Part shown: positions 29,875 to 43,663 of the stretch, in pieces
How the letters are laid out: every line of letters starts with the position of its first letter
How positions within the stretch are numbered: the first letter of the stretch is position 1
NCBI GenBank assembly: GCA_028282785.1
Contig: JANQHE010000035.1
Coordinates: forward strand, 1 to 64,000
DNA: 64,000 nucleotides
Source of the DNA: Bacteroidales bacterium
Lineage (GTDB): Bacteria; Bacteroidota; Bacteroidia; Bacteroidales; UBA12077
Direction: 5' to 3'
Translations under genes and position numbers: made by a program
The notes under the pieces: model-generated
Seen by the model: the letters and a program-made list of their open reading frames with translations, nothing else
Told to the model about the DNA's origin: nothing
Databases searched by the model: none

Positions 29875-30025
29875 AATCAACATCATAGGCTAATGCAAGT
29901 TGTTAGGTTTTTGTTTATAACTTATATCTTGTGAGATTTGGAAATATTGCTAAATTTACAATTTCGATCGATAAAATTTCGTTTTAACGTAATATTATCG
30001 GTCAAAAGAAAGAAAGCTAACAATC

Positions 30026-31006
30026 GTGAAAAGAATATATTTTATATTCCTAGTACTATTTTTTATTATCGTAAAAGCTGGTTATTCCCAAGATACACAG
30101 TTTTCACAGTTCTATGCTAGTCCTTTATTTTTAGCCCCGTCTTTTGCCGGATCAACGGACGGAGATCGTATAAATGTAAACTACCGTAATCAATGGCCTG
30201 CTATTTCCAAATCATTCCAAACTTATTCGCTTGGATATGATCACTATTTTCCACATTTAAAAAGTGGATTTGGATTATTATTGTTCAGAGAACAGGCAGG
30301 AGCTAGTGTTTTGGCAACTACTAATATAGGTATAGCTTATTCTTATAAATTCAGATTTAGAAGTGGATGGCGTATTAGCCCCGGAATAAGCTTCTTTTAT
30401 ACACAAAGAAACATTGATTTTACCTCATTGGAATTTTATGATGAACTTGATTCGGGAACACCAACCATTGAGCAGGATATATTAGGAAAAAAAGCCGATA
30501 TAGATGCTTCTTTTTCTACTTTGGTATTTAATAGGAATTTATGGTTTGGGTTTTCGTGGGATAGAATTCTAAAACCAAACAGATCATTAACAGGTGAAGT
30601 AAGACAAGATCCCTGGAAGTTTTCAATATATGGAGGTACCAGGTTTAGTATTTTTGACAAGTATAATTGGGCAAGTGGACAAAGTCTTTCCCCTTCATTC
30701 TTATTTAAGATGCAAGACAAATATACTCAGTTAGACCTGGGTGTATATTGGTATCAAGAGCCACTGGTATTGGGAATCTGGTATCGTGGAATACCAATTT
30801 TTAAGGAACTTGCAAGTAATGATGCATTAGTATTTTTATTGGGTTTTAAAGTAGATCAATTTAGTATAGGATACAGCTATGATCTTACTATCTCAAAACT
30901 GGTTGGATTTACTGGAGGTGCGCACGAGATATCAGTTACATATCTGTTTAACCAAGGTGTTACAAAAAGAGAAAAAAGAAAAATTATTCCTTGCCCAACC
31001 TTTTAA
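30026..31006 (+). CDS. PorP/SprF family type IX secretion outer-membrane protein
   Basis: The 326-residue protein has a signal peptide (cleavage near YSQD, residue 21) and the family opening QDTQFSQFYASPLFLAPSFAGS. The remainder is predicted beta-barrel, with the internal NYRNQWPAI motif and a C-terminal HEISVTYLF strand. PorP/SprF proteins sit in the outer membrane and are needed for secretion or surface fixation of the large type B-tailed protein encoded next to them. Context therefore points to service for the PKD adhesin upstream. I chose the ATG-like start at 30026 (GTG in the DNA) because it gives a complete signal peptide. Confidence 0.93.
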   Translation: MKRIYFIFLVLFFIIVKAGYSQDTQFSQFYASPLFLAPSFAGSTDGDRINVNYRNQWPAISKSFQTYSLGYDHYFPHLKSGFGLLLFREQAGASVLATTNIGIAYSYKFRFRSGWRISPGISFFYTQRNIDFTSLEFYDELDSGTPTIEQDILGKKADIDASFSTLVFNRNLWFGFSWDRILKPNRSLTGEVRQDPWKFSIYGGTRFSIFDKYNWASGQSLSPSFLFKMQDKYTQLDLGVYWYQEPLVLGIWYRGIPIFKELASNDALVFLLGFKVDQFSIGYSYDLTISKLVGFTGGAHEISVTYLFNQGVTKREKRKIIPCPTF

Positions 31007-31105
31007 GATGAGTTACTTTAGATTTTGTTTTCTTGCATAATATCAAATCGTTAGCATCAAATCATAAAAAAAAATAAAATTCTTTTAAGATGTGTGATAT
31101 TCGTT

Positions 31106-31113
31106 TATATTTG
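31106..31113 (+). promoter_or_regulatory. Putative -7 promoter box for the OmpH-like gene
   Basis: TATATTTG matches the Bacteroidota -7 consensus TAnnTTTG and lies 42 bases before the start codon. I see no convincing -33 box. Confidence 0.4.
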
Positions 31114-31154
31114 CTTTTTTAAAATAAGATGAATAAAAATTAAATTTTGAAACT

Positions 31155-31760
31155 ATGAAGAAAGTATCTCTTGTGTTAAATGTTGTTTTAATTTTAGCTG
31201 TGGTAGGGATTTATTATTTACATTTTTCAGGAAATAAAACGACTAAAAAGGAAGTTAGCAAGGATGAAGCAGAACAAATTATTGACAGAGATTATGCAAT
31301 TGCATATGTTAATATTGATACATTAGTAAGTAATTATAATTTATTTGTTGATAAAAGTGATGAGCTAACTCAGAAAAGAAATGAATCTGAAGCTGAATTG
31401 CAAATTCAATCAAAAAATTTTGAAAATGAAGTTCTAGATTTTCAGGACAAAGTTAACAAGGGATTAATTACTCGTACAAAAGCTCAAATGTTACAGCAAG
31501 AACTAGCGCAAAAAGAGCAACAATTGTATGCTATGAGGGATAATATGGCAATGCAATTAGCAGAAGAGGAGCAAGTTATGTACCGTCAGGTATTAAATGA
31601 AGTAATGGAATACCTGGAAGAGTATAATGAAAAATACAACTATCGATTTATTTTCAGTAATTCATTTGGTGGACAATTACTTTATACTGATAAAAGTTTA
31701 AATATCACAATGGATGTACTTGATGGATTAAATGAAAAGTACGATAAGTCTAAGGAATAA
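31155..31760 (+). CDS. OmpH/Skp-like periplasmic chaperone family protein
   Basis: The 201-residue protein has one N-terminal hydrophobic segment (about residues 5-23). A Skp-like core follows: AYVNIDTLVSNYNLF, then a long charged coiled coil rich in Gln/Glu (about 70-150), and a C-terminal YNYRFIFSNSFGGQLLYTDKSLNIT strand segment. Skp family proteins hold outer-membrane proteins in the periplasm on their way to assembly. The hydrophobic segment could be an uncleaved anchor rather than a signal peptide. A glycosyltransferase gene starts 5 bases after its stop codon, so the two are cotranscribed. Confidence 0.88.
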   Translation: MKKVSLVLNVVLILAVVGIYYLHFSGNKTTKKEVSKDEAEQIIDRDYAIAYVNIDTLVSNYNLFVDKSDELTQKRNESEAELQIQSKNFENEVLDFQDKVNKGLITRTKAQMLQQELAQKEQQLYAMRDNMAMQLAEEEQVMYRQVLNEVMEYLEEYNEKYNYRFIFSNSFGGQLLYTDKSLNITMDVLDGLNEKYDKSKE

Positions 31761-31765
31761 AAAAA

Positions 31766-33031
31766 ATGGCTTTTGCAGATGCCTATTTGGAAAAACAAAG
31801 GAATTTTCAAATAAAAATTCAAGCAAAACCATGTGCCAATCTAAAATATATTATTGTAATTCCATGTTTCAATGAGTTTAATCTAATTGAAACTTTAAAG
31901 TCTTTAAGGAATTGCGATAAAGTCAAACCTTCAATTGAGGTTATAGTAATTATTAATTCTCCTAAAGGTTGCAATAAAGAGATATTAGATCAAAATAACA
32001 AAACATTAAATGAAGCGAAGAATTGGATTCATGAAACTGAAGATTCTTCGTTTCGTTTTTTTATTCTTCACGAGAAGGATTTACCAAAGAAATTTGCTGG
32101 TGCTGGATTAGCCCGAAAAATTGGAATGGACCAGGCAGTCGCAAGGTTTAATCAATTGAATAGAAATGATGGTATCATAGTATCAATGGATGCAGATTCA
32201 AAAGTTCAATCAAATTACTTTATCGAACTCGAAAAACATTTTACCAGGTATCCAAAAACAAATGTGGTTACAACTTATTTTGAGCATCCGGTCGAAGGGA
32301 ATGAATTTGATGAAAATATCTATAATGCAGCTACGATTTATGAGTTATATATGCGTTACTATAAACTTTCTATGGATTATACAGGTTTCCCGTATTCATA
32401 TTATACAGTTGGTTCGTGTTTTGCAGTGAGATCTAATTCATATGTAAAACAAGGTGGAATGAACCGAAAGCAGGCAGGAGAGGATTTTTATTTCTTACAT
32501 AAGATTTTTCCTCTTGGAAACTCATATGAAATAAACACGACATGTGTAATGCCTTCTTCTCGAATATCGGACCGTGTTCCTTTTGGCACCGGTCCTATGA
32601 TACGATCAATTATTGATTCAAATAACAAGGAGTTTCTAACTTATAATTTTAGCGCATTTTTAGAATTGAAAATATTTTTTTCCGGAATTAGAGAACTTTT
32701 TAAAATAGAAAAATCAGATTTAGAAAAGACGATAAAGGAATTACCAAATTGTATTTCGAAGTTTCTTATTGATAATGAAATAAGTGAGGCTTTGAAGGAA
32801 ATAAATGAAAATAGTTCAAATATCAAAACGTTTACCAAACGTTTTTACAATTGGTTTGATGCTTTTAAAATTCTTAAATATCTAAATTTTGCTCATGAGA
32901 CCAGCTATACAAAAAAACCGTTACTTGGTGAAGCAGAAAAACTATTAATGAATATAGCAAGTATTAAACCCGCGCAGAAAAACTTTAAAGAATATCTAGA
33001 AGTTTATAGAAGCCTGGAAAGAAAGTTTTAA
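31766..33031 (+). CDS. Family 2-like glycosyltransferase
   Basis: The 421-residue protein has a GT-A fold N-terminus (YIIVIPCFNEFNLIETLKSL) and the DXD-like motif in VSMDADSKVQSNYF around residues 138-151. A QAGEDFYFLHKIF segment matches the GED acceptor motif of family 2 enzymes. No membrane helix is evident, so the enzyme is probably cytoplasmic. Donor and acceptor are unknown. It is cotranscribed with the OmpH-like gene. Its last four bases overlap the 3' end of the convergent DivIC-like gene. Confidence 0.85.
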   Translation: MAFADAYLEKQRNFQIKIQAKPCANLKYIIVIPCFNEFNLIETLKSLRNCDKVKPSIEVIVIINSPKGCNKEILDQNNKTLNEAKNWIHETEDSSFRFFILHEKDLPKKFAGAGLARKIGMDQAVARFNQLNRNDGIIVSMDADSKVQSNYFIELEKHFTRYPKTNVVTTYFEHPVEGNEFDENIYNAATIYELYMRYYKLSMDYTGFPYSYYTVGSCFAVRSNSYVKQGGMNRKQAGEDFYFLHKIFPLGNSYEINTTCVMPSSRISDRVPFGTGPMIRSIIDSNNKEFLTYNFSAFLELKIFFSGIRELFKIEKSDLEKTIKELPNCISKFLIDNEISEALKEINENSSNIKTFTKRFYNWFDAFKILKYLNFAHETSYTKKPLLGEAEKLLMNIASIKPAQKNFKEYLEVYRSLERKF

Positions 33032-33339
33032 TCTTCTTCAACAATAACAAAAATATCTTCGTCATCTTTTTTCATTAAATATTGCTCTCTGGCAAATTTC
33101 TCAAGATTCTTGCTGTTGGTTTTGAGTTGCTTTAATCGCTTGGAATCTTTGTCGATTCGTTCTATGTAATACTTTTTGTCTTTTTCCAGTTGTTTAAGAT
33201 GACGCAATTCTTTTGCCCTGTCAATTAGATTATTTCGATCAAAAAATAAAAGCCAGGTTATAAAAATTATAAAAGACAGAATAAATTTGTTCTTAACAAA
33301 TGGCAAGATCTTTTTCCATATTTTTAAAGCTGAACTCAT
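33028..33339 (-). CDS. Septum formation initiator (DivIC/FtsB family)
   Basis: The 103-residue protein has a short cytoplasmic N-terminus, one membrane helix (about residues 16-33), then a coiled coil (about 38-75) and the family segment NLEKFAREQYLMKKDDEDIFVI, typical of DivIC/FtsB proteins. These form a trimeric complex with FtsL and FtsQ/DivIB at the division septum. It is encoded convergently to the glycosyltransferase, overlapping it by four bases. Confidence 0.88.
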   Translation of the reverse strand: MSSALKIWKKILPFVKNKFILSFIIFITWLLFFDRNNLIDRAKELRHLKQLEKDKKYYIERIDKDSKRLKQLKTNSKNLEKFAREQYLMKKDDEDIFVIVEED

Positions 33340-33488
33340 ATTGCAATATTAAAAGTAATTATATGCCTGACAAAACATTCAAGTTGGAAAGTATTAACAA
33401 TAAATAGTTAAAAGATAAAAGGCAAAAGACAAAAGATTAAACATTGTGAATAACTAATAACTTAATAATTTTAATTATTTATTAAAGA

Positions 33489-33692
33489 TTATCCTCCACT
33501 TACTAAATGGAGAACAGTAACATTGTCACCATCATTAATTTCAAAAGTATCGTAGGAATCCTTTTTAACAAGAGTACCATTGACTTTTATAACCAACATT
33601 TTAAATGTGTATTTTTTCATAGCTAGCAGTTCAGAAATTGTAACTTGCTTTTGCTCTAAGGATTCCAGCCTGTTATTTAGAGTTATTTTCAT
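33489..33692 (-). CDS. thiS: ThiS/MoaD-like sulfur carrier protein
   Basis: This 67-residue ubiquitin-fold protein ends in GlyGly (HLVSGG), as needed for adenylation and thiocarboxylate formation. It starts inside the stop codon of the ThiF-like gene (TAATG overlap), so the E1 enzyme and carrier are translationally coupled. ThiS carries sulfur for thiamin thiazole, and MoaD for the dithiolene of molybdopterin. No thiamin genes (thiG, thiH) or moaE are near, but two aldehyde:ferredoxin oxidoreductase genes are. I infer that it serves pyranopterin or tungsten-cofactor maturation. A second copy lies at 38261. Confidence 0.85.
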   Translation of the reverse strand: MKITLNNRLESLEQKQVTISELLAMKKYTFKMLVIKVNGTLVKKDSYDTFEINDGDNVTVLHLVSGG

Positions 33693-34276
33693 TACTTATT
33701 ACTTAACAAAATTTCTAGAACTGTATTTGCTTGCATGTTAGCTACTATTCCAACTCTAGGTGCCAATGGTGGATTATCATCTGCAATTTCCGATTCTTCG
33801 TCTCCGCAAATATATAAATTCTCCGATTGCCTGAATTTTATCAAATTGTTTTTGCCATAGCCAGCCATACCTAAACCTAATACAATTTTTTTCTCTGGTA
33901 ATTCAGAAAGAAATGTTTCGATCAACATTTTTTTCATTTCAGCCAGGTCAAAAGCCTCAACAATTACATCACAATCTTTATAAATTTCAACAATATTATT
34001 TTCATTTAGTTTAGTATCATTGGTAATAATTTTAACTTCAGGATTTATTCCAGCGATATTTTCCTTTAGCGCATGAACCTTCTTTTGTCCTAACTGATCT
34101 CTAAAAAAATATTGGCGGTTTAGGTTGGACTCGTTCACAATATCAAAATCTGAAATGACTAGTTTACCTATTCCAACTCTGGCAAGTGCTACAGCACAAT
34201 TTGAACCTAATCCACCGGCTCCTGCTATGCCAACTGTACATTTTTTTAATTTTGATTTTATTTCTTCAAATATCAT
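33692..34276 (-). CDS. thiF: ThiF-family E1-like adenylyltransferase (short form)
   Basis: The 194-residue protein has the ATP-binding GIAGAGGLGSNCAVALARVG (residues about 16-35), the DFD...NLNRQYFF segment and the C-terminal LAPRVGIVANMQAN motif. This matches the short ThiF family 2 form, which lacks the paired CXXC zinc motifs of MoeB and ThiF. The family activates the C-terminal glycine of ThiS or MoaD using ATP. The carrier gene overlaps its stop codon. A closely similar copy lies at 37581. Its place beside AOR genes suggests sulfur transfer for the tungsten-pyranopterin cofactor; thiamin synthesis is the alternative. Confidence 0.87.
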   Translation of the reverse strand: MIFEEIKSKLKKCTVGIAGAGGLGSNCAVALARVGIGKLVISDFDIVNESNLNRQYFFRDQLGQKKVHALKENIAGINPEVKIITNDTKLNENNIVEIYKDCDVIVEAFDLAEMKKMLIETFLSELPEKKIVLGLGMAGYGKNNLIKFRQSENLYICGDEESEIADDNPPLAPRVGIVANMQANTVLEILLSNK

Positions 34277-34438
34277 CGTTAAATCATTCGTACGTGTTCT
34301 TTGTGAGTTTCTATTTTACCACAAAGATCACAAGGGGTTACACAAAGTTTGGAATATCGAATATCGAATAAGGAATTATGATTTTCGAAGCTTAGAAAAT
34401 ACTTCTTTATTCGCTATTCGTTGTTCATTATTCAAAAT
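34277..34438. repeat. Low-complexity gap with dispersed-repeat-like sequence
   Basis: This gap has 'ACCACAAAGATCACAAGG...ACACAAAG' and 'TCGAATATCGAATAAGGAAT' near 34318-34376 and a partly inverted partner, 'TTCGCTATTCGTTGTTCATTATTCAAAATTC', downstream. Such strings recur in Bacteroidota intergenic regions. I see no gene in it. Confidence 0.3.
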
Positions 34439-35146
34439 TCAAATTCTACTCGGTCTTAAATAAACCTTGTTTATGAATGGTAAAAATTGTTTTGTTCCAC
34501 CTCCTTGTTGGATAATTCTTAACGTATTAACATCATTAGGTTCAAAGATAACACCAAATAATAATTTTATGTTTCGGTACTGAAACATTTCCTTATCTAA
34601 AATTGTCGATGGACCAAGTGTATAAATATCGCAACCGTCCTTTGTTGTATTAATTAGCTCCAAAAAAGTGTTGTTGAATACTGTTGTAGAAGATAGTATT
34701 ACAGCATCAGCTTTTGAAACTATATTAAGTTGTTCAGACATAGTGGTGAGTTTTTCATCCTCAAACGCTTTGTCAAAAATGATAAGATCGATGTTTTCGT
34801 TTTCAAATTTCTCAACTAAGGATCGAAAAAAACCTATCATTACTATCTTTTTATATTTTGTAAAATCAATTTTATCAAAAATATCAATTGTAGAATCATA
34901 TTGATTTTGATAGTTAAATATTGCGTTGTAATATGCGTTTAAAACTATACGATGTTGTATGTTAATTAAATCTGGAAATCTTAAATCTTTAACATCAATA
35001 TTAACATAATTATCCAGAGTTGCACAAACACCCAATTTGCCATCTTTTAAAATAACGGCTACATATTTTTCGCCACAAACTATATGATTTATCTTTTGCA
35101 AATCGATTCCATATTTCTCGAAATAGTATTCTAATGGTTCTAACAT
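34439..35146 (-). CDS. DUF364 (putative heavy-metal chelation domain) protein
   Basis: The 235-residue protein has a short N-terminal domain resembling DUF4213. A Rossmann-like half follows, with KIVMIGFF near residue 95 and ADAVILSSTTVFNNT near 147-161. The strongly diagnostic segment is TLGPSTILDKEMF...GVIFEP, with QQGGGTKQF near the end. These features match the DUF364 and DUF4213 families, described as putative heavy-metal chelation domains. It diverges from the first AOR gene (234-base gap) and precedes the ThiF/ThiS pair on its own strand. I infer a role in handling molybdate/tungstate or the metal-loaded cofactor for the AORs. Confidence 0.82.
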   Translation of the reverse strand: MLEPLEYYFEKYGIDLQKINHIVCGEKYVAVILKDGKLGVCATLDNYVNIDVKDLRFPDLINIQHRIVLNAYYNAIFNYQNQYDSTIDIFDKIDFTKYKKIVMIGFFRSLVEKFENENIDLIIFDKAFEDEKLTTMSEQLNIVSKADAVILSSTTVFNNTFLELINTTKDGCDIYTLGPSTILDKEMFQYRNIKLLFGVIFEPNDVNTLRIIQQGGGTKQFLPFINKVYLRPSRI

Positions 35147-35267
35147 GTTTTATATCATTATTTAATGTTTTAGCAACAAATTTAAGATATTTTCTTACGA
35201 TAAACTTTAATAAAAAGATTGATAAACCGCTCATATTCATATATGTAATTGTAACGTTTTATTTATT

Positions 35268-35349
35268 AGCGATATGCACTATATAACATATTGATTTAAG
35301 TCATTTTATACTTTTAGTACACACTATATTTTTATAGTTTTGAAATGCT
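35268..35349 (+). promoter_or_regulatory. Upstream regulatory block of AOR1 (duplicated before AOR2)
   Basis: Beginning AGCGATATGC, this block is identical at 71 of 80 aligned bases to 38699-38778 upstream of AOR2. It is AT-rich and contains TAGTTTTG at 35335-35342, which fits the -7 consensus TAnnTTTG. The conserved 5' part (AGCGATATGCAYTATRTAACATATTG) may be a regulator site. It ends about 30 bases before the AOR1 start codon. Confidence 0.6.
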
Positions 35350-35380
35350 AAGCACGAAATAAACTTTAAGAAAAATAAAC

Positions 35381-37537
35381 ATGGATATTCAGAAACTTAA
35401 AGCAGAACAAAAACTGCTAAAAGCATGGAGTTACGACTGGCATCCTATTGAAAGAGGATATAACAATCGTACTTTATACATTAATGTTGGAAGCAATGAA
35501 GTAAGTGAAAAACCGGTTTCTCAGGAAATGAAAGATAAATTTGTTGGTGGAAAAGGTTTTGGTTTAAGATTACTTTGGGATGCAACAACACCGGACACAA
35601 AATGGGACGATCCGGAAAATGAGATCATCATATCTCCAGGACCAATTGGCGGTATAACTCAATATTCAGGTGCTGGAAAATCACTACTGGTTTCTATATC
35701 TCCTCAAACTGATTCTATAATGGACTCAAACGTAGGTGGATTCTTCGGTCCATTTATGAAGTTTGCTGGTTTTGATGCTCTTGAGCTACAGGGTAAAGCT
35801 GATAAAGACATTATCATTTATCTTGATGGTGTTAATCATAAAGTAGAAATTTATGATGATCCGGGATTTGCGGTTGATTCGCATATTCTTGGTGAAGAGC
35901 TTACCGAACTATTCGCAGAAGATGAAAAAGATGCAAAAAATATTGGAATTGTTTCTGCCGGAGCTGCTGCAGAAAATTCGCTTATCGGAATGCTTAATTT
36001 TACATTTTGGGATAGTAAACGTAAGATGGTTCGTCTGAAACAAGCTGGTAGAGGTGGTATCGGAACAGTTTTTCGCAATAAAAACATTAAAGCTATTGTT
36101 GCAAGAACTTCTGGTGTAAAAGGAAATCTTAACAATGTTGCTAATATGGATATGATCACAAAAGTTGGCCGCGACTATGCAGGCGAAATGCGTGACCTTG
36201 ACGATAAGCAAAACCAAATGAAGAAAAAAGGAACAGCAAATATTGTAAACGTAATGGCCGATTATGATTTGCTTCCTACACATAACTTCAAATATGGAAC
36301 TCATGATGATGCTCCTAAAATCCATTCTGATTTTCTAAGAGATAAATGGTTTACACTTGGTATAAATGATGCATGTTGGATTGGTTGTGCTATGCAATGT
36401 GCAAAAGGAGCTGATGATTTTGAACTTAGAACAGGACCTTATAAAGGAACAAAAGTAATCGTTGATGGACCAGAATACGAAACAGCAGCTGGTTTAGGTT
36501 CAAATATTGGTATTTTTGATTATCATCCTATTATAGAAGCTAATTTCTATTGTGATACATATGGTATTTGTACTATTACCTGGGGAACAATTGTTGCCTT
36601 CATAATGGAATGTTACGAAAATGGTGTGATCAACAAAGAAATCACAGGTGGACTTGAACTTAACTTTGGTAATGTTGAAGCTTCATTAGAATTATTACAT
36701 CAACTTGCAAGAGGCGAAGGTTTTGGTAAAGTTGCAGGAACAGGTGTTCGACAAATGAAAAAACTTTTCATTGAAGAATACGGTGCAGATGCTGATTTCT
36801 TAAATGATATCGGTATGGAAAACAAAGGTCTTGAGTATTCTCAGTATGTTTCGAAAGAATCACTTGCTCAGCAAGGTGGATATGCAATGACGAATAAAGG
36901 GCCACAACACGATGAAGCTTGGTTAATTTTCATGGATATGGTAAATAATCAAATTCCTACGTTTGAAAATAAAGCTGATGCTCTTCACTGGTTCCCAATG
37001 TTCAGAACATGGTTCGGTTTACAAGGATTATGTAAGATTGTTTGGAATGATGTTACTCCTGAAGACAATAAGTTTGAGGAAGAACCTCATAAAATACCTA
37101 AGCACTTAAGAAACTACTTAGCAGTTTATGAAGGTGTTACCGGTAATCCGCTTGACGAAGCAGGTTTGATCCGTCAGTCTGAAAGAGTTTATAACTTCCA
37201 ACGAATTTTCAATATCCGTCGTGGTTATGGTTTACGTAAACATGATGCTCAACCGTATCGTGCAGCAGGACCTGTAACTGTTGAGGAGTACGAATCTAGA
37301 GCAGAACGTTACGATGGACAAATGAAGGATATTATTGGAATTGATCCAACTGGTAAAACAACGGAAGAGAAAGTTGCTATTACTAGAAAATACAGAGAAG
37401 AACAGTATGAAAAATTACTGGACGCTGTTTATGAAAGAAGAGGATGGACCAACAACGGAGTTCCAAAAATTGAACACCTTAAAGAAATTGGTATGGACCT
37501 TCCGGAATTGATTGAAGTAATCAAACCTTTACAATAA
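35381..37537 (+). CDS. aor: Aldehyde:ferredoxin oxidoreductase, large form (AOR1)
   Basis: AOR oxidises aldehydes to acids, passing electrons to ferredoxin, or runs in reverse, with a tungsten bis-pyranopterin and one [4Fe-4S] cluster. This protein has 718 residues, against about 605-660 for well-known AORs. The N-terminal cofactor domain shows GGKGFGLRLLW, GPIGG, DSNVGGFFGPFMKFAGFD and GRGGIGTVFRNK. GPEYET (363-368) matches the catalytic glutamate region, and His510 lies in GPQHDEAW. The cluster cysteines are C332, C336 and C340 in CX3CX3C spacing, with C551 a likely fourth. Classical AOR has CX2CX3C. It is followed by a terminator and then thiF/thiS. Confidence 0.93.
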   Translation: MDIQKLKAEQKLLKAWSYDWHPIERGYNNRTLYINVGSNEVSEKPVSQEMKDKFVGGKGFGLRLLWDATTPDTKWDDPENEIIISPGPIGGITQYSGAGKSLLVSISPQTDSIMDSNVGGFFGPFMKFAGFDALELQGKADKDIIIYLDGVNHKVEIYDDPGFAVDSHILGEELTELFAEDEKDAKNIGIVSAGAAAENSLIGMLNFTFWDSKRKMVRLKQAGRGGIGTVFRNKNIKAIVARTSGVKGNLNNVANMDMITKVGRDYAGEMRDLDDKQNQMKKKGTANIVNVMADYDLLPTHNFKYGTHDDAPKIHSDFLRDKWFTLGINDACWIGCAMQCAKGADDFELRTGPYKGTKVIVDGPEYETAAGLGSNIGIFDYHPIIEANFYCDTYGICTITWGTIVAFIMECYENGVINKEITGGLELNFGNVEASLELLHQLARGEGFGKVAGTGVRQMKKLFIEEYGADADFLNDIGMENKGLEYSQYVSKESLAQQGGYAMTNKGPQHDEAWLIFMDMVNNQIPTFENKADALHWFPMFRTWFGLQGLCKIVWNDVTPEDNKFEEEPHKIPKHLRNYLAVYEGVTGNPLDEAGLIRQSERVYNFQRIFNIRRGYGLRKHDAQPYRAAGPVTVEEYESRAERYDGQMKDIIGIDPTGKTTEEKVAITRKYREEQYEKLLDAVYERRGWTNNGVPKIEHLKEIGMDLPELIEVIKPLQ

Positions 37538-37544
37538 TAACTTA

Positions 37545-37570
37545 AAAGCCCTTTTTAAAGGGCTTTTTTT
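37545..37570 (+). terminator. Rho-independent terminator between AOR1 and thiF2
   Basis: AAAGCCCTTT pairs with AAAGGGCTTT across a 2-base loop and is followed by a T run. It lies only 8 bases after the AOR1 stop codon, so thiF2 and thiS2 may be expressed mainly by read-through. Confidence 0.8.
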
Positions 37571-37580
37571 ACTTCTTATC

Positions 37581-38159
37581 ATGAATTTTAAAGAAATTAA
37601 AGAGAAACTAAAAACAAAAACTGTAGGAATTGCCGGTTGCGGTGGTTTAGGTTCCAATTGTGCCGTAGCATTGGCAAGGGTGGGAATAGGTAAATTAGTA
37701 ATTGCCGACTTTGATAAAATCGAAGAATCTAACCTTAACAGACAATATTACTTTTGGGATCAGATTGGGAAAGTAAAGTCAGATACTCTAAAGGAGAACA
37801 TAAAGAGAATTAATAAAGATATTGAAGTTACCAATCACAATGTTTTTATTGAAGAATCTAATTTTGAAGAATTATTCAAGGAATGTGATTTGGTAATTGA
37901 AGCATTCGACAGGTCTGAATCCAAAGAAATGATTGTTCGAGCTATGAGTAAGTTTTTCCCTGATAAAATGCTCATAATGGGAATAGGAATGTCTGGTTGG
38001 GGTCAAAATGATTCTATTAAAGAAACCAGATACGATAATTTAATAATTTGTGGAGATCAAGCTTCAGAAATTTCAGATGAATTACCCCCACTTGCACCAC
38101 GAGTTGGGATGGTAGCCAATATGCAGGCAAATGTTGCTTTGGAAATTTTGTTAAAATAA
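37581..38159 (+). CDS. thiF: ThiF-family E1-like adenylyltransferase, second copy
   Basis: The 192-residue protein is a close paralogue of the one at 33692. It shares the GIAGCGGLGSNCAVALARVGIGKLV nucleotide loop, NLNRQYYFWDQ, AFDRSESK and the final LAPRVGMVANMQANVALEIL. It is the same short form, without CXXC zinc pairs. It starts 43 bases after AOR1, just past the terminator, and the ThiS-like gene follows about 100 bases later. Keeping a separate E1 and carrier pair on each side of AOR1 suggests a specialised sulfur-transfer step for the enzyme's cofactor. Confidence 0.87.
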   Translation: MNFKEIKEKLKTKTVGIAGCGGLGSNCAVALARVGIGKLVIADFDKIEESNLNRQYYFWDQIGKVKSDTLKENIKRINKDIEVTNHNVFIEESNFEELFKECDLVIEAFDRSESKEMIVRAMSKFFPDKMLIMGIGMSGWGQNDSIKETRYDNLIICGDQASEISDELPPLAPRVGMVANMQANVALEILLK

Positions 38160-38260
38160 AAATGAATAGCTATACTTGCCTAAATTGTATGATGATTTTC
38201 AATCTTTAGTATTACTTTATAGAAGAAATTGTGTAGTTAGCCAACAAATAAATTAGCAAA

Positions 38261-38464
38261 ATGAAGATCACTTTAAATAACAGACCGGAAACATTTGAAA
38301 GCACAAGCATGACAATGGGAGAGTTGATGAGAATCAAAAATTTTACATATAAAAAGATTATCGTTAAGGTTAATAATAAAATTGTAGAACCACACGAATA
38401 TGATTCCACAATCTTAAATGAAAACGATATTGTTGTTGTTTTACACCTTCTTGCAGGTGGATAA
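38261..38464 (+). CDS. thiS: ThiS/MoaD-like sulfur carrier, second copy
   Basis: The 67-residue ubiquitin-fold protein begins MKITLNNRPE, almost as the first copy does (MKITLNNRLE), and ends HLLAGG with the C-terminal GlyGly. It lies between thiF2 and AOR2. Its likely job is to be adenylated by the neighbouring ThiF-like protein and to carry sulfur. The recipient is unknown; the pyranopterin dithiolene is the best guess from context. Confidence 0.85.
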   Translation: MKITLNNRPETFESTSMTMGELMRIKNFTYKKIIVKVNNKIVEPHEYDSTILNENDIVVVLHLLAGG

Positions 38465-38468
38465 TCTT

Positions 38469-38638
38469 CTAGAAAATAGCTATTGATCCTGCAATACTTC
38501 TTATATCACCAAATAAGATTTTTATATCGGATATTGGTAGTTTAGATATTCTCATATTGCTTCCGGGATAAAATACATTTCATATCCTGAATTTTTACCT
38601 TCGAATAAAGCTTCTTTTAAAGTAGTAATCTTACGCAT
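38469..38638 (-). other. Two tiny overlapping ORFs in the thiS2-AOR2 gap
   Basis: On the minus strand, 38552-38638 encodes 28 residues (MRKITTLKEALFEGKNSGYE...) and 38469-38555 encodes another 28 (MRISKLPISDIKILFGD...), with start and stop overlapping (ATGA). The first resembles the C-terminal end of a ParD-like antitoxin and the second the opening of a ParE-like toxin, but both are too short to be functional. They could be remnants or chance. The rest of this 311-base gap holds the AOR2 promoter block. Confidence 0.2.
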
Positions 38639-38698
38639 TTTATCTCAGAACCATTTTAGGCTCTTTATATGATAAAAAAAGTGATTTGTTGTGAATTA

Positions 38699-38780
38699 AG
38701 CGATATGCATTATGTAACATATTGATTTAAGTTATTTTACACTTTTAATACACATTAAATTTTTATAATTTTAAAATGCC
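38699..38780 (+). promoter_or_regulatory. Upstream regulatory block of AOR2
   Basis: This block matches 35268-35347 at 71 of 80 bases, starting AGCGATATGC. The position of the AOR1 -7 box reads TAATTTTA here. Conservation stops at about the point where the leader sequences diverge, and the palindromic repeat then lies between this block and the AOR2 start codon. Confidence 0.55.
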
Positions 38781-38798
38781 TAAATCAAAACAAATCTA

Positions 38799-38814
38799 CC
38801 TGTCGGCAGACAGG
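38799..38814. repeat. Dispersed palindrome in the AOR2 leader
   Basis: CCTGTC and GACAGG flank a GGCA loop. The element ends 15 bases before the likely AOR2 start codon at 38830. An upstream in-frame ATG at 38776 would translate through it. Confidence 0.7.
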
Positions 38815-38829
38815 CTAAAAAAACTAGAT

Positions 38830-40983
38830 ATGGATATTCAGAAAATGAAGGAAGCCCACAAACTCATAAAAGAGTGGAAATATGAGCTTCGCCCAATAGA
38901 AAAGGGATATAATGATCGTACGTTATACGTTAATGTTGGATCAAACGAAATTAAGGAAAGACCTGTGCCACAGCAAATGAAGGAAAAATTCATTGGTGGT
39001 AAAGGATATGGTTTAAGATTATTATGGGATGCAACAACACCAGAAACAAAATGGAACGATCCTGAAAATGAAATTATCATTGCTGGAGGCCCTATTTGTG
39101 GTATTACACAATATTCGGGTACTGGTAAAGCATTGGTAGTATCTATATCTCCGCAAACTGATTCTGTAATGGATTCAAATGTTGGTGGTTTCTTCGGACC
39201 ATTTTCAAAGTTTGCTGGATTCGATGCAGTAGAAATACAAGGTAAAGCTAATAAAGAAGTTATCGTTTTTCTTGACGGAGTAAACGGTAAAGTTGAAATT
39301 TTAGAAGCTCCAGAAGAGCCAATCGATAGTCATGTTTTAGGCGAAATATTACACGAAATGTATTCGGATGATGAAAAAGACCGAAAAAATGTTTCTGTTG
39401 TATCGGCAGGTTCTGCAGCTGATCATACATTAATCGGTATGTTAAACTTCACTTTCTGGGATAACAAACGTAAACTTGTTCGTTTAAAGCAAGCTGGTCG
39501 TGGCGGTATCGGAACTGTTTTCAGAAATAAAAAAATCAAAGCACTAGTTTGTAAAATTCCGGGTGTAAAAGGTAATTTAAATAATGTTGTTGATATGGAC
39601 TCTATCATGGAACGTGGTAAGAGATTCAACAGAGAAATGCGTGAGTTAGACGATCAACAATGTGAAATGAAAACTAAAGGTACTGCTCACCTTACTAATA
39701 TCATGAATGATTATGATTTATTACCTGTAAATAACTTTCAGTACGGACATCATAAGAATGCAGACAAGATTCATGGAGATGTTTGGAAATCATTTTTTAC
39801 TCAAGGTGTTCCTGATGGTTGTTGGATCGGTTGTAATATGTCATGCGCAAAAGGTGTCGATAATTACGAATTAAGAACCGGACCTTATGCTGGTGATAAA
39901 GTAATAGTTGATGGGCCTGAGTATGAAACAACTTCATCGAATGGTTCAATTATGGGAATTTTCAATCCTGATTTTACAATTGAAACTAATTTCTATTGTG
40001 ATACTTATGGTATTTGTACTATTACTTATGGTACGATCATGGGATTTGTAATGGAATGTTTTGAGAACGGAATTTTAAACGAAGAACGCACTGGTGGTTT
40101 AAAACTAAACTTTGGTAATGCAGGTGCTGCAATGGAAGTTTTACATCAAATGGGTCGTGGCGAAGGATTCGGCTTAATCGCCGGACAAGGTGTTCGTAAA
40201 ATGAAAAAAATGTTTGCTGAAAAAGGATGGGGTGATCCTAAATTCATGCAAGACATTGGAATGGAAAATAAAGGATTAGAATATTCTCAATACATTTCTA
40301 AAGAATCATTAGCTCAGCAAGGTGGTTATGCAATGACAAACAAAGGACCACAACACGACGAAGCTTGGTTAATTTTCATGGATATGGTGAACAACCAAAT
40401 CCCGACATTCGAAAATAAAGCAGAAGCGTTGCATTATTTCCCAATGTTCCGTACCTGGTTTGGTTTAATGGGATTATGTAAGCTTCCTTGGAACGATGTT
40501 GAGCCGGAAAACAATGCAGAAACAGATGAACCGGCTAAAGTACCTGAGCACGTTGATAATTATGTTACAATTTATAAAGCTGTTACTGGCTTGGATTTTG
40601 ATAAGAAAGAAATGATTCGTCAATCGGAAAGAGTGTATAACTTCCAGCGTATTTTCAATATCCGAAGAGGTTATGGTTTACGTAAAGATGACGCTCAGCC
40701 TTATCGTGCAGCAGGACCTGTTACAGTTGCTGAATACGAATCTAAAGCCGAACATTATGATAAGCAGTTAAAAGAGATCACTGGTGTTGATCCTACTAAA
40801 ATGTCTATCGAAGAGAAAATGTCTGCAACAAGAAAATACAGAGAAGATCAATATGAAAAATTATTAGATGCTGTTTACAAGCGTCGTGGTTGGACCTCTA
40901 ATGGTGTTCCGAAAATTGAACACTTAAAAGATTTAGGTATGGATCTTCCGGAATTAATCGAAACTGTTAAAGATATTCAATAA
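38830..40983 (+). CDS. aor: Aldehyde:ferredoxin oxidoreductase, large form (AOR2)
   Basis: AOR2 is a close paralogue of AOR1, with almost unbroken identity around MENKGLEYSQY...GPQHDEAWLIFMDMVNNQIPTFENKA. I chose ATG 38830 (MDIQKMKEAHK) because it aligns exactly with the AOR1 start (MDIQKLKAEQK). The in-frame ATG at 38776 would add 18 residues encoded partly by a palindromic repeat. The product has 717 residues. The cluster cysteines are C331, C335 and C339, again CX3CX3C. Both paralogues also keep GPEYET and GRGGIGTVFRNK. Having two may give different aldehyde ranges or a heteromeric enzyme. The nearby ThiF/ThiS and DUF364 genes probably support its tungsten cofactor. Confidence 0.93.
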   Translation: MDIQKMKEAHKLIKEWKYELRPIEKGYNDRTLYVNVGSNEIKERPVPQQMKEKFIGGKGYGLRLLWDATTPETKWNDPENEIIIAGGPICGITQYSGTGKALVVSISPQTDSVMDSNVGGFFGPFSKFAGFDAVEIQGKANKEVIVFLDGVNGKVEILEAPEEPIDSHVLGEILHEMYSDDEKDRKNVSVVSAGSAADHTLIGMLNFTFWDNKRKLVRLKQAGRGGIGTVFRNKKIKALVCKIPGVKGNLNNVVDMDSIMERGKRFNREMRELDDQQCEMKTKGTAHLTNIMNDYDLLPVNNFQYGHHKNADKIHGDVWKSFFTQGVPDGCWIGCNMSCAKGVDNYELRTGPYAGDKVIVDGPEYETTSSNGSIMGIFNPDFTIETNFYCDTYGICTITYGTIMGFVMECFENGILNEERTGGLKLNFGNAGAAMEVLHQMGRGEGFGLIAGQGVRKMKKMFAEKGWGDPKFMQDIGMENKGLEYSQYISKESLAQQGGYAMTNKGPQHDEAWLIFMDMVNNQIPTFENKAEALHYFPMFRTWFGLMGLCKLPWNDVEPENNAETDEPAKVPEHVDNYVTIYKAVTGLDFDKKEMIRQSERVYNFQRIFNIRRGYGLRKDDAQPYRAAGPVTVAEYESKAEHYDKQLKEITGVDPTKMSIEEKMSATRKYREDQYEKLLDAVYKRRGWTSNGVPKIEHLKDLGMDLPELIETVKDIQ

Positions 40984-41002
40984 GATTAATAATATAAAAA
41001 AG

Positions 41003-41044
41003 AAAGGCTTGGCCCTGTTCACTATCGGGATTAAGCCTTTTTTC
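41003..41044. terminator. Terminator between convergent AOR2 and permease genes
   Basis: AAAGGCTT (41003-41010) pairs with AAGCCTTT (41033-41040) around a 22-base loop. A-rich sequence lies on the left and a T run on the right, so it can serve both strands. Confidence 0.65.
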
Positions 41045-43456
41045 TTATTCATATCTTAATGCTTCTACCGGATTTTTATTAGCTGCAATAACAGCGTGTA
41101 AGCTTATTGTTAACTGTGCTATTATTAAGGTAATTAGGCCTGATAGTATATATATCCAATACGGCATTTCAATTTTATAAGAGAAATTTGACAGCCATTT
41201 ATTCATGAAATAATAAACTAATGGCCATGCTATAACATTTGATAAAACTACCAGCCATATAAACCCAGTTGACATATTCATTACAATAGTATACACAGAA
41301 GCTCCCAATGCCTTTTTTATTCCAATTTCTTTGGTTCTTTGTTCAGCAGCGTATAAAGTCAATCCGTATAATCCTAAACAAGCTACAAATATTCCAAAAG
41401 CTGTAAATAGGCTAACAAGCCTACCCGCTTTTACTTCTTCAATATAATGCCTGTTAAAGTCTTCATCAATAAAGTAATATACAAAAGGATTTTCCGGATA
41501 AAGTTCATTCCATTTATTTTCAATAAACTTTAAAGAAGATTTAATATTGATTGCATTAATACTCAAATTTATAGTTCTAAACTGGTCAGGAAAAAACTCT
41601 AGTATGAGCGGTTCAATTTTATTCTGCAGGCCCATAAAGTGGAAATTCTTAACCACACCTACCACCTTTAATTTACGACCACCTAATCCTGTAATAATTT
41701 CTTGCCCAATTGCTTCTTCTGGTGAAGACCATCCAAAAGATTCAACTGAAGCTTCGTTTAAAATAAAGGACCCATTTTCCATGTTATCCCATGAAGAAAT
41801 ATCAGATACTATATTTTTATTAAAGTTTCTTCCGGCAATTAACTCTATATCGAATTGTTTAATAAAATTATCATCAATATGCATGTAATACATGGACTGA
41901 GATTTGTTGTCATCTTCATTATCTAAAGATGCCGCGTAATTATTAACATCTTTTCCAATTGAACTTGAAGATACAGAGGCGTTAGTAATGTTTGAGTTAG
42001 AAAGAAATTCGGTTTTAATCTCTTCATAATTTTGTTCTATATCAATTCCGCCTCTTAATGGTAAAACAATTTTATTTGATTTATTAAAACCAAGATTACG
42101 ATTTTTCATGTAATCTACCTGTAAATAAATAATGAATGAGGCAATAATTAATGCAATTGATATTGCGAATTGTATAATTACTAGTCCTTTTCGAACATAG
42201 GAGCTAATCGAATCTCTACTTTTTTCATTTCTAAAAATGTCAACTGGTTTCACAATAGATAAATATATTGAGGGATAAAGTCCCGATAAAATCCCTAATA
42301 ATATTCCGAACATAATTAAGCCTGGTAATATCCACCAATTACTCAAATACTCTATATTTAAATCCTTTTCTACAAGATTATTAAATGCAGTTTGAATTAA
42401 CTCAACAGTATATAGTGCAATATTAAGCGCAATGAAACTTAATATAACAGATTCTATAAGAAACTGAGAAATAATAAACTTTCTGGTTCCGCCAACTATT
42501 TTTCTTATGGCTATTTCTTTAAAGTTATTAATGTTCTTTGAAGTAGAAAGGTTCATGAAGTTTACACTTCCAATTATCAAAATAAATATTCCAATAATAG
42601 AGAATATATATATATAAATTTTGTTACCATGAGTACTTTTATCTAATCGTAAAGGTTCATTTAAATGTACATCTGCAATTGCTTCTAATTCAAAATTAAT
42701 ATTATAACCATTTTCTTTCAAATCATCAGCAATATAATGATAGGCTAATGTATCAATATCTTTTTTGAATGCTGCAAAATCTATATCGGGCAGAAGTTTG
42801 ATATAAGTAAAAAACATTGTATTGTACCAATTATTGAGTTGGTCCCAATCTTTCCATGTGGATAATGACGCAATAAAATCGTATTCTAAAATAGAATTAT
42901 CGTAACTATCTTTGATGATCCCGGTTATTTCATATTCATTTGTATTAATTTTCATTACTTTCCCTATAGGATCTTCATTTCCGAAATATTTCTTTACAGT
43001 ACTTTCAGTAATTAATAATGTATTAGGTTTTACCAGAGCGTCATCAGGATTACCTTTAATTAATGGTATATTAAATATTTTCAATAAATCTGGTTCGGAT
43101 ATTATCATTTTATTTTCATAAAATGATTTGTCTTGGTATTTAAATAACCGATTTCCCCATACATAAGTTCTGGCAGAATATTTTACTTGTGGATATCTGT
43201 CTTTTATTGCAGCACCAGCAGGTCCGCAGATAGGAGCATACATTGTTGTTTCTGATCCCCGGCCTATACTTTCAACCACTCTGTAAATTCTTTCATAACC
43301 CGGATGAAATTTATCATAGCTAAGTTCATTGCTTACCCACTGGAATATAAGTATACTACAAGCAATACTAATTGCCAGGCTAAGTATCTTTATGATAGAA
43401 AATATCTTATCATTAATAATTTTTCTAAAACTTATTTTAACATGATTCCAAAACAT
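41045..43456 (-). CDS. FtsX/MacB-type ABC transporter permease
   Basis: The 803-residue protein has the double-unit plan of Bacteroidota FtsX-like permeases. It has an N-terminal membrane helix, a periplasmic MacB-like domain, three helices near 285-400, a fifth near 425-450 and a second periplasmic domain. Three final helices from about 685 end in NPVEALRYE. EIAIRKIVGG and EIGIKKALGA are the paired coupling motifs that contact the ATPase. No ATPase gene is adjacent, so the partner is encoded elsewhere. It diverges from an NtrC-type response regulator. A sigma-54-like promoter lies 31 bases before its start, so I infer control by that two-component system. Confidence 0.9.
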   Translation of the reverse strand: MFWNHVKISFRKIINDKIFSIIKILSLAISIACSILIFQWVSNELSYDKFHPGYERIYRVVESIGRGSETTMYAPICGPAGAAIKDRYPQVKYSARTYVWGNRLFKYQDKSFYENKMIISEPDLLKIFNIPLIKGNPDDALVKPNTLLITESTVKKYFGNEDPIGKVMKINTNEYEITGIIKDSYDNSILEYDFIASLSTWKDWDQLNNWYNTMFFTYIKLLPDIDFAAFKKDIDTLAYHYIADDLKENGYNINFELEAIADVHLNEPLRLDKSTHGNKIYIYIFSIIGIFILIIGSVNFMNLSTSKNINNFKEIAIRKIVGGTRKFIISQFLIESVILSFIALNIALYTVELIQTAFNNLVEKDLNIEYLSNWWILPGLIMFGILLGILSGLYPSIYLSIVKPVDIFRNEKSRDSISSYVRKGLVIIQFAISIALIIASFIIYLQVDYMKNRNLGFNKSNKIVLPLRGGIDIEQNYEEIKTEFLSNSNITNASVSSSSIGKDVNNYAASLDNEDDNKSQSMYYMHIDDNFIKQFDIELIAGRNFNKNIVSDISSWDNMENGSFILNEASVESFGWSSPEEAIGQEIITGLGGRKLKVVGVVKNFHFMGLQNKIEPLILEFFPDQFRTINLSINAINIKSSLKFIENKWNELYPENPFVYYFIDEDFNRHYIEEVKAGRLVSLFTAFGIFVACLGLYGLTLYAAEQRTKEIGIKKALGASVYTIVMNMSTGFIWLVVLSNVIAWPLVYYFMNKWLSNFSYKIEMPYWIYILSGLITLIIAQLTISLHAVIAANKNPVEALRYE

Positions 43457-43486
43457 ATATTAAAATTTAATGGTTTTGAAACCATG

Positions 43487-43503
43487 AACCAATAGTAATG
43501 CCA
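43487..43503 (-). promoter_or_regulatory. Sigma-54-like promoter of the first FtsX-type permease
   Basis: Read on the minus strand, TGGCATTACTATTGG has the -24 TGGCA box with GG-N10-GG spacing. The -12 element is TTGG rather than the canonical TTGC. It lies about 31 bases before the permease start codon, nearly the same as at 55175-55189. Confidence 0.45.
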
Positions 43504-43567
43504 TAAAATATAACAAGCTGAATAGTAGAATTTTATAAGAATTGAGCATTTTCATTTAAAAGTTAAA

Positions 43568-43606
43568 TGTAGCAATTCGATTATCTAAGTGTAGCATTTT
43601 GCTACA
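43568..43606. promoter_or_regulatory. Palindromic operator pair (candidate response-regulator site)
   Basis: TGTAGCA-TTT-TGCTACA is a perfect 17-base palindrome (43590-43606). A half site TGTAGCA lies at 43568-43574, 22 bases upstream, or two helical turns. The same architecture (TGTAACA-TAA-TGTTACA) occurs in the paralogous gap at 55105-55121. It is about 108 bases from the permease -12 box, a normal distance for a sigma-54 enhancer site. Confidence 0.65.
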
Positions 43607-43663
43607 GTAAATTTTGAACTATTACTAAACTACAATATTTTTGATGTACTAAATCAAAAAAAA

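Follow-up and report, generated by a model that had tools for sequence, protein, structure and literature searches.

A 64,000-nucleotide stretch of a Bacteroidales genome (GenBank assembly GCA_028282785.1, contig JANQHE010000035.1, positions 1 to 64,000 of the forward strand; hereafter the window) carries two aldehyde:ferredoxin oxidoreductase (AOR) genes between positions 33489 and 40983, together with two sulphur carriers of the ThiS/WorX type, two short ThiF-type E1 enzymes and one DUF364 gene. We consider it likely that this is a tungsten AOR locus embedded in a tungsten regulon, in which the WorX/ThiF pairs feed a MOSC domain standing in for the MoaE that is missing from the genome. A preliminary description made from the sequence alone had listed the seven genes and read them as a dedicated tungsten-cofactor and aldehyde-oxidation locus. 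The genes were all found where it had placed them, each scoring above the Pfam curated cut-off for its main family, and the reading gained support from conserved AOR site residues, from a separate thiamin operon and from a predicted operator linking the AORs to a ModE-like gene and to semialdehyde dehydrogenases. The features are as follows (aa, amino acids).

33489-33692, minus strand: ThiSa, WorX-type sulphur carrier, 67 aa, C-terminus HLVSGG (Pfam and NCBIfam)
33692-34276, minus strand: ThiFa, short E1-type adenylyltransferase, 194 aa (Pfam, NCBIfam, alignment and tree)
34439-35146, minus strand: DUF364 protein (PF04016), 235 aa, lineage-specific accessory
35270-35293, unstranded: predicted operator 1, CGATATG-N10-CATATTG, within the promoter region from which DUF364 and AOR1 diverge
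35381-37537, plus strand: AOR1 (WorL) of cassette B, 718 aa, AFOR_N and AFOR_C domains
37544-37567, plus strand: terminator-like hairpin after AOR1 and ahead of ThiFb
37581-38159, plus strand: ThiFb, short E1-type adenylyltransferase of cassette B, 192 aa
38261-38464, plus strand: ThiSb, WorX-type sulphur carrier of cassette B, 67 aa, C-terminus HLLAGG
38701-38724, unstranded: predicted operator 2, CGATATG-N10-CATATTG, upstream of AOR2; the flanking ~80 bp resembles the unit-A AOR promoter region
38776-40983, plus strand: AOR2 (WorL), the AOR of unit A, 735 aa as listed, AFOR_N and AFOR_C domains

The true start of AOR2 is probably the ATG at 38830, giving 717 aa; there it aligns with the start of AOR1.

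AORs, carrier/E1 pairs and the MoaE/MOSC pattern

AOR1 matched the Pyrococcus AOR structure 1AOR at E 8e-53, and the tungstopterin-site residues Thr243, Glu313, Tyr427 and His448 of PfAOR, as given in PMC13328260, corresponded to T285, E367, Y489 and H510. Across 45 AOR rows, the Glu, Tyr and His residues and four cysteines were present in 45/45 and the Thr in 44/45. The Fe-S cysteines, under the numbering that we take to apply to AOR, were also kept in AOR1. Both AORs are encoded as in a class I WOR module, with a WorL large subunit next to a ThiS-like carrier ending in GG and a ThiF, and with no adjacent Fe-S small subunit. When aligned to MoeB (1JW9), the short ThiFs (192-194 aa) showed the Arg, Lys and Asp of what we take to be the ATP site, and lacked the two CxxC motifs that presumably bind zinc in MoeB/ThiF E1s. 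Their C157 was invariant in 12 aligned rows.

A contig scan with both AORs returned at least 45 further loci, a sample which together with the window makes up the 46 loci considered here. Most are from Bacteroidota; Calditrichota, Cloacimonadota, Myxococcota, Bipolaricaulota, Chloroflexota, Lokiarchaeota and Bacillota also appeared among the matches listed. BLAST clustering of AOR neighbours, in which some contigs stop close to the AOR, recovered ThiF in 26/46 loci, ThiS in 26/46 and DUF364 in 7/46; their grouping with AOR is therefore not due to chance. Other recurrent neighbours were P5C dehydrogenase-like (12 loci), ModE-type (11), tungstate-type binding protein (8), MoeA (4) and MoaA (4) genes. 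A ferredoxin-type family adjoined the AOR in 5 loci, none titled Bacteroidota. Two loci (L142 and L143) hold uptake genes, AOR, ThiS, ThiF, MoeA, MoaA, MoaC, a MOSC::MogA fusion and a gene for Δ1-pyrroline-5-carboxylate (P5C) dehydrogenase (P5CDH) within 19 kb; a third (L144) has the same set without ThiF and ThiS, neither of which lies on the fetched stretch of that genome. The AOR of L054 was missing from the neighbour clusters, a 1031-aa frame standing in its place, and AOR positions are known for 45 of the 46 loci. The two Cloacimonadota loci (L053 and L055) have AOR, ThiF, ThiS and a ferredoxin-type gene, and MoaC, MoaE and MOSC were not found in either genome; incomplete genomes or another source of pterin are the alternatives.

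No MoaE match was obtained in the genome of the window (100% complete, 2.93% contamination), of which contig C80 encodes MoaA, MoaC, MoeA, a MOSC::MogA fusion and a MobA-like protein. Among the 45 other genomes with AOR, only that of L057 (Chloroflexota) had MoaE and 38 had MoaC; loss of MoaE through incompleteness of metagenome-assembled genomes is unlikely, given that MoaC was found in 38/45 of the same genomes. In 395 genomes of the phylum MoaE was found in 147 and AOR in 5 (our own included), with MoaE in 0/5 of the latter. Fisher's test gave p = 0.16 for these five alone and 2e-8 with 35 Bacteroidota-titled loci added, both values overstating independence because the genomes are related. 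A compact MoaA of 266 aa was considered as a companion of MoaE loss and rejected, the MoaA frames of MoaE-less Peptococcaceae and Calditrichales being 330 and 326 aa long. The 266-aa form is found in these Bacteroidota (L021, 14744-15544); its C-terminal Pfam domain matched over positions 55-101 of 128, and the C-terminal cysteines are kept by eye.

The MOSC part of our MOSC::MogA was searched in 80 genomes, comprising 50 with AOR, 24 with MoaE and no AOR (from the 147 MoaE-bearing genomes of the phylum) and 6 with neither (from 243). It was found in 43/50 AOR genomes and, at a strong score, in 0/24 MoaE-bearing controls, three of which gave weak matches (E 2.8e-6 to 5.6e-4), and in 0/6 genomes with neither. 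MoaC was present in 43/50 AOR genomes (38 of the 45 others, our own and four further); 42 of these 43 have MOSC without MoaE, and the remaining one, that of L057, has MoaE without MOSC. Short ThiFs followed the AOR genomes in the same way: at E<=1e-25, a limit which leaves weaker E1s uncounted, they were found in 41/50 (211 bits or more) and in 0/24 controls, where a single match reached 92.7 bits.

This MOSC domain is mostly fused to MogA, although in some genomes linkers, frames or contig ends interrupt the fusion. Cysteines C105, C110 and C119 were each present in 32 of 33 aligned rows, and C105 aligned with a cysteine of YiiM-type MOSC proteins. The remaining row, L135_11475, is a second copy with none of the three cysteines; it belongs to a tandem MOSC pair (L135, 11022-12392) whose second member is fused to MogA, an arrangement that looks like division of labour or decay. 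The best NCBIfam model for the domain was the MoaC/MOSC fusion PRK14499, matched over the MOSC half only and under the whole-protein cut-off. If the name of the model is right, MOSC is tied both to the step before the missing one (MoaC) and to the step after it (MogA).

We tentatively propose that the three-cysteine MOSC replaces MoaE as a second kind of molybdopterin synthase, receiving sulphur from WorX and the short ThiF for tungstopterin, under a ModE-like regulon that would switch between AORs and NAD-linked dehydrogenases. Besides the relatedness of the genomes, several observations weigh against this proposal. MoaC, MOSC and MoaE were not found in six AOR genomes, including both Cloacimonadota, where AOR, ThiF and ThiS are present. 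In nine of the 50 AOR genomes no short ThiF reached E<=1e-25; G002, which is among them, has a fragment at a contig end. Four genomes (G022, G028, G031 and G041) have MoaC and MOSC without a short ThiF, and there the scheme would require a different E1; the E1 of the thiamin operon described below could also serve another pathway. Exclusion may not be strict everywhere either, both moaE and a mosC, of this or another subfamily, being reported for Geobacter sulfurreducens in a passage of PMC2700814.

Finally, the MOSC domain may act elsewhere, in metal insertion or sulphuration. Elsewhere, MOSC domains bind or use the molybdenum cofactor (Moco). They are classed as molybdoproteins in a passage of PMC6147048, and the domain studied here is joined to MogA, a late-step enzyme, with YiiM proteins as its weak PDB relatives. 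These points favour an alternative which we regard as possible but rather unlikely, namely that another protein replaces MoaE and that the MOSC of MOSC::MogA inserts metal into the finished cofactor or sulphurates it. It has to contend with the complementarity of MOSC and MoaE, which is without exception in the 43 AOR genomes that have MoaC, and with the best NCBIfam model, which joins MOSC to an early-step enzyme. Where MOSC does not adjoin MogA (G028, G031 and G041), it is found near MoaC or MoaA. Clustering of MoaC neighbourhoods covered 20 other genomes and our own, with labelling in further stretches; in the 22 clustered Moco stretches no family besides MoaA, MoaC, MoeA and MOSC::MogA occurred in more than 7.

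In the route that we favour, ThiF would adenylate the C-terminal GlyGly of WorX, leading to a thiocarboxylate. WorX would then give its sulphur to cyclic pyranopterin monophosphate, made by MoaA and MoaC of C80, to form the molybdopterin dithiolene, and MoaE being absent, the catalytic partner of WorX would most likely be the three-cysteine MOSC domain fused to MogA. The MogA domain would adenylate the product and MoeA would insert tungsten, which may enter through a WtpA-type binding protein; the bis-pterin cofactor would finally go into the two AORs, class I-like enzymes without a small subunit, which are encoded together with two WorX/ThiF pairs.

A palindrome ahead of AOR genes and a putative tungsten regulon

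A promoter element common to both AORs holds the 24-bp palindrome CGATATG-N10-CATATCG. Allowing up to 2 mismatches, its only occurrences in the window were at 35270-35293 and 38701-38724. Taken by itself, the window gives weak evidence for it, because 4/100 shuffles reached as many strand-matches. The window and the 45 other AOR loci together contained 37 sites, of which 25 lay immediately ahead of an AOR. Counting the window, the AOR start is known for 45 loci, and the palindrome preceded the AOR in 24 of these. Two hundred permuted palindromes gave a mean of 2.0 sites, and none hit AORs in more than a single locus. In a larger collection of 94 stretches (1,302,130 bases), which counts some genomes twice, there were 50 sites: most stood ahead of an AOR, a ModE-type gene or P5CDH, two were close to a gene for tungstate binding, and three or four belonged to a putative lipoprotein gene.

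Contig C80 of our own genome (stretch L022) carries four sites (8 strand-matches; 0/200 shuffles had as many), ahead of the ModE-type gene, ahead of P5CDH and at two genes that look lipoprotein-like by eye. Downstream of the P5CDH site, and on one strand, lie genes over NCBIfam cut-offs for L-glutamate semialdehyde dehydrogenase, L-piperidine-6-carboxylate (P6C) dehydrogenase and a WtpA-type tungstate-binding protein. The two dehydrogenase genes occupy 3560-6855 of L022, P5C dehydrogenase first, and the palindrome stands 48 bp ahead of them. Relatives likewise have P5CDH together with the palindrome, a recurrence that hints at the substrates of the AORs or at metal-sparing isoenzymes.

Two further AORs of our genome lie on contigs C55 and C30: one site precedes the AOR operon on C55 (12/200 shuffles reached that count), and no palindrome was found in the stretch searched around the AOR on C30. 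Ahead of the third AOR (604 aa; L013, 7355-10197) are genes for a 4Fe-4S protein, whose N-terminus contains RR and looks signal-like by eye, and for a 113-aa protein with no Pfam match; the palindrome lies 43 bp ahead of the first gene of the operon. The fourth (604 aa; L014, 7104-9267) stands beside a 140-aa 4Fe-4S protein, with no palindrome at up to 2 mismatches in the stretch.

The palindrome is a probable operator, predicted from its positions, of a tungsten regulon comprising the AORs, the ModE-like gene and the semialdehyde dehydrogenases. The ModE-like protein would be the likely regulator at this site of the AORs and of the two NAD-linked semialdehyde dehydrogenases (P5C and P6C), which may act as tungsten-free counterparts of the AORs. 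Several observations speak against this reading. The ModE-like protein scored 70.9 bits with the helix-turn-helix model TIGR00637 (E 7e-20), under the cut-off of 98.5, and its 125 aa are presumably too few for a full-length ModE with its metal-binding part. The WtpA gene of our genome has no palindrome of its own, and the sole match at the MoeA-MoaA-MoaC-MOSC::MogA genes of C80 has 2 mismatches, falls within a neighbouring gene and was equalled in 39/200 shuffles.

The metal itself has to be weighed, since ModE-type regulators and Moco genes are usual for molybdenum. According to PMC13328260, the class V WOR YdhV of Escherichia coli prefers molybdenum. That the locus runs on molybdenum instead of tungsten is nevertheless improbable, as the substrate-binding protein of C80 passes the WtpA tungstate model (384 bits; NCBIfam cut-off 355) and the four site residues reported for WORs that oxidise aldehydes are conserved in the AORs.

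The ModE box consensus, printed as ATCGCTATATANNNNNNTATATAACGAT in a passage of PMC2700814, resembles the palindrome in its 24-bp core and in its CG-TAT outer half-sites, arranged in inverted order. As a further likeness, a ModE-type helix-turn-helix gene itself carries the box. The half-site is CGATATG(CA) here, unlike in the ModE box, and the candidate regulator has 125 aa and falls under the ModE cut-off.

TonB-dependent receptor genes, one confirmed by Pfam and one by similarity, lie beside the Moco/tungstate genes. Together with unassigned lipoprotein-like genes they cover L021 17963-19999 (minus strand) with L022 1-257, and L022 254-1183, 8908-9474, 9596-10501 and 10512-12833; the palindrome stands at the start of L022 254-1183 and ahead of L022 8908. 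These genes are candidates for outer-membrane uptake of tungstate or molybdate. Beside the ModE-type gene, L022 1737-2477 encodes a 246-aa protein that matches methanogenesis marker 11 and TiaS below their cut-offs and recurs in 3 of the 22 clustered Moco stretches.

Separate thiamin genes, DUF364 and the nested cassette

Both ThiFs and both ThiSs pass the NCBIfam thiamin equivalog models TIGR02354 and TIGR01683, which would fit surplus thiamin genes lying beside AOR by accident. The thi operon on contig C7 makes this very improbable: it already has ThiC, ThiE and ThiH over their cut-offs, a ThiS of its own, and a ThiD-like protein and a ThiF-type E1 that both score below cut-offs. Its ThiG was recognised by eye only, with no model matched at E 1e-30, and its E1 passes no NCBIfam cut-off, which leaves some room for a thiamin role of the pairs. 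The C7 ThiS is 21% identical to ThiSa, and it and the two carriers of the AOR locus are the only three ThiS-family matches in the genome. In the window the ThiS/ThiF pairs neighbour AOR and DUF364, not thiazole genes; the recurrence of both families by AOR extends to Cloacimonadota, and short ThiF follows AOR genomes, not controls. Thiamin genes were not among the recurrent neighbours of AOR loci, no dedicated search having been made for a ThiF/ThiS pair beside thiamin genes.

The DUF364 protein scored 76.1 bits with its Pfam model (cut-off 23), and 22.3 with the DUF4213 model, below the cut-off of 23.5. It aligned to the structure 3NPG at E 7.6e-5, and the profile matched 3NPG and not 3L5O (Dhaf4260). 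It is like the DUF364 structures (3L5O, PMC2954201; 3NPG) in passing the Pfam cut-off and unlike them in forming a divergent group beside AOR. The preliminary description had counted DUF364 as part of the system; this does not hold generally, since PF04016 was found in 17/46 AOR genomes (16 over the cut-off), and DUF364 is a lineage-specific auxiliary gene sharing the divergent promoter of AOR1. That it supplies the missing molybdopterin synthase component, after the crystallographers' idea of pterin synthesis, is the least probable of the alternatives: the crystal paper (PMC2954201) includes a predicted pterin/flavin-type active site and tungstate and molybdate transporter neighbours, and the promoter region shared with AOR holds a predicted operator, but MoaE is missing from nearly all of these genomes and a gene present in so few of them is ruled out as a general MoaE substitute.

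The two AORs are 71% identical and the two ThiFs 58%. In a tree of 45 of 47 AOR rows (the two of 680 aa or less were excluded), AOR1 grouped with L024, L026, L052 and the first AOR of L025 (support 100/99), and AOR2 with L030, L034, L035, L059, L062 and the second AOR of L025 (100/98). The ThiF tree showed the same split, with ThiFb beside L024, L026 and L052 (100/97) and ThiFa beside L030, L034, L035, L059 and L062 (99/96). In the relatives of AOR2, ThiS-ThiF-DUF364 are divergent from the AOR with no known gene between (a 62-aa frame is listed there in L035). It follows that unit A (ThiSa-ThiFa-DUF364 / AOR2) encloses cassette B (AOR1-ThiFb-ThiSb), and both trees rule out a tandem duplication of the locus. 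The region upstream of AOR1 matches that of unit-A promoters (81% to L034 across 160 bp); ~80 bp of this element recurs ahead of AOR2. The doubling seen in the preliminary description stands, and the dedicated doubled system that it suggested is not supported as described: the arrangement is a nested cassette, found again, minus ThiFb, in one other fetched locus (L025).

The hairpin between AOR1 and ThiFb could lower expression of the carrier gene relative to that of the AOR. No riboswitch was found, Rfam giving no match at gathering score in seven sources; of two sub-threshold matches in window positions 30000-44000, one falls on this hairpin. Elsewhere, the window encodes a 2207-aa protein (23251-29874) with repeated WDFGDG-type domains and, by eye, a C-terminus of the gliding/type IX secretion system type, followed by a PorP/SprF-like gene (30026-31006, by eye).

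Relation to described systems and significance

The tungsten AOR locus with WorX/ThiF, which is well supported, is the part already known. Class I WORs with WorX and thiF, such as CsWOR87 of Cetobacterium somerae, are described in PMC13328260 with a predicted role of these genes in pterin biosynthesis, and Iyer et al. 2006 (PMC1779556) reported a ubiquitin-like carrier by AOR, often with an E1, and proposed synthesis of the tungsten cofactor. The locus studied here is like the former in its large subunit without small subunit and its adjacent ThiS-like WorX and thiF, and like the latter in its carrier and E1 beside AOR. AOR genes with MoaD/ThiF-like neighbours are, as the preliminary description noted, known from other organisms; its view of a little-described system is not supported for this core, AOR with ThiS (WorX) and ThiF being in print in the same two papers. 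In contrast to the CsWOR87 type, a nested second cassette, DUF364, the operator and a genome without MoaE are found here, and the AORs have ~718 aa against 604-633 aa for the solved AORs matched. Relative to the MoaD(+MoeB) neighbourhoods of PMC1779556, whose table passage names no Bacteroidota, the E1 is a short ThiF and MoaE is absent.

Molybdopterin synthesis without MoaE has precedents in the relevant passages of three genome papers. Geobacter metallireducens was reported to lack moaE and to have moaD, moeB and mosC, a matter its authors call unknown (PMC2700814). In Dehalobacter moaE was not found, and MOSC proteins were suggested in 2016 as a possible synthase (PMC4751268); for Thermotoga thermarum a Moco pathway was reported without moaE (PMC4148951). 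All three resemble our case in that moaE was not found though the cofactor is needed, and Dehalobacter and Geobacter also in having MOSC genes among their Moco genes. Those are single-genome remarks, whereas here the pattern extends over 50 AOR genomes and 24 controls, with a MOSC subfamily signature and a pairing with AOR-linked WorX/ThiF. In the open-licence PMC literature we found nothing tying WorX/ThiF, the MOSC subfamily and the palindrome together. The new elements are the nested cassette, the operator with its probable regulon, and the complementarity of MoaE and MOSC; the preliminary description mentions neither the operator nor the lack of MoaE.

Collectively, these results bear on a question that genome papers have not settled since 2009 at the latest (PMC2700814), that of molybdopterin synthesis without MoaE. 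The MoaE/MOSC pattern names a candidate, the MOSC domain, and a likely sulphur donor, WorX/ThiF, both small and easily testable. The palindrome outlines what is probably a tungsten regulon in a group of Bacteroidota and points to possible uptake genes. This regulon also suggests that the AORs and the P5C and P6C dehydrogenases are alternatives to each other, and such an alternation therefore offers a guess at the substrates of the AORs.

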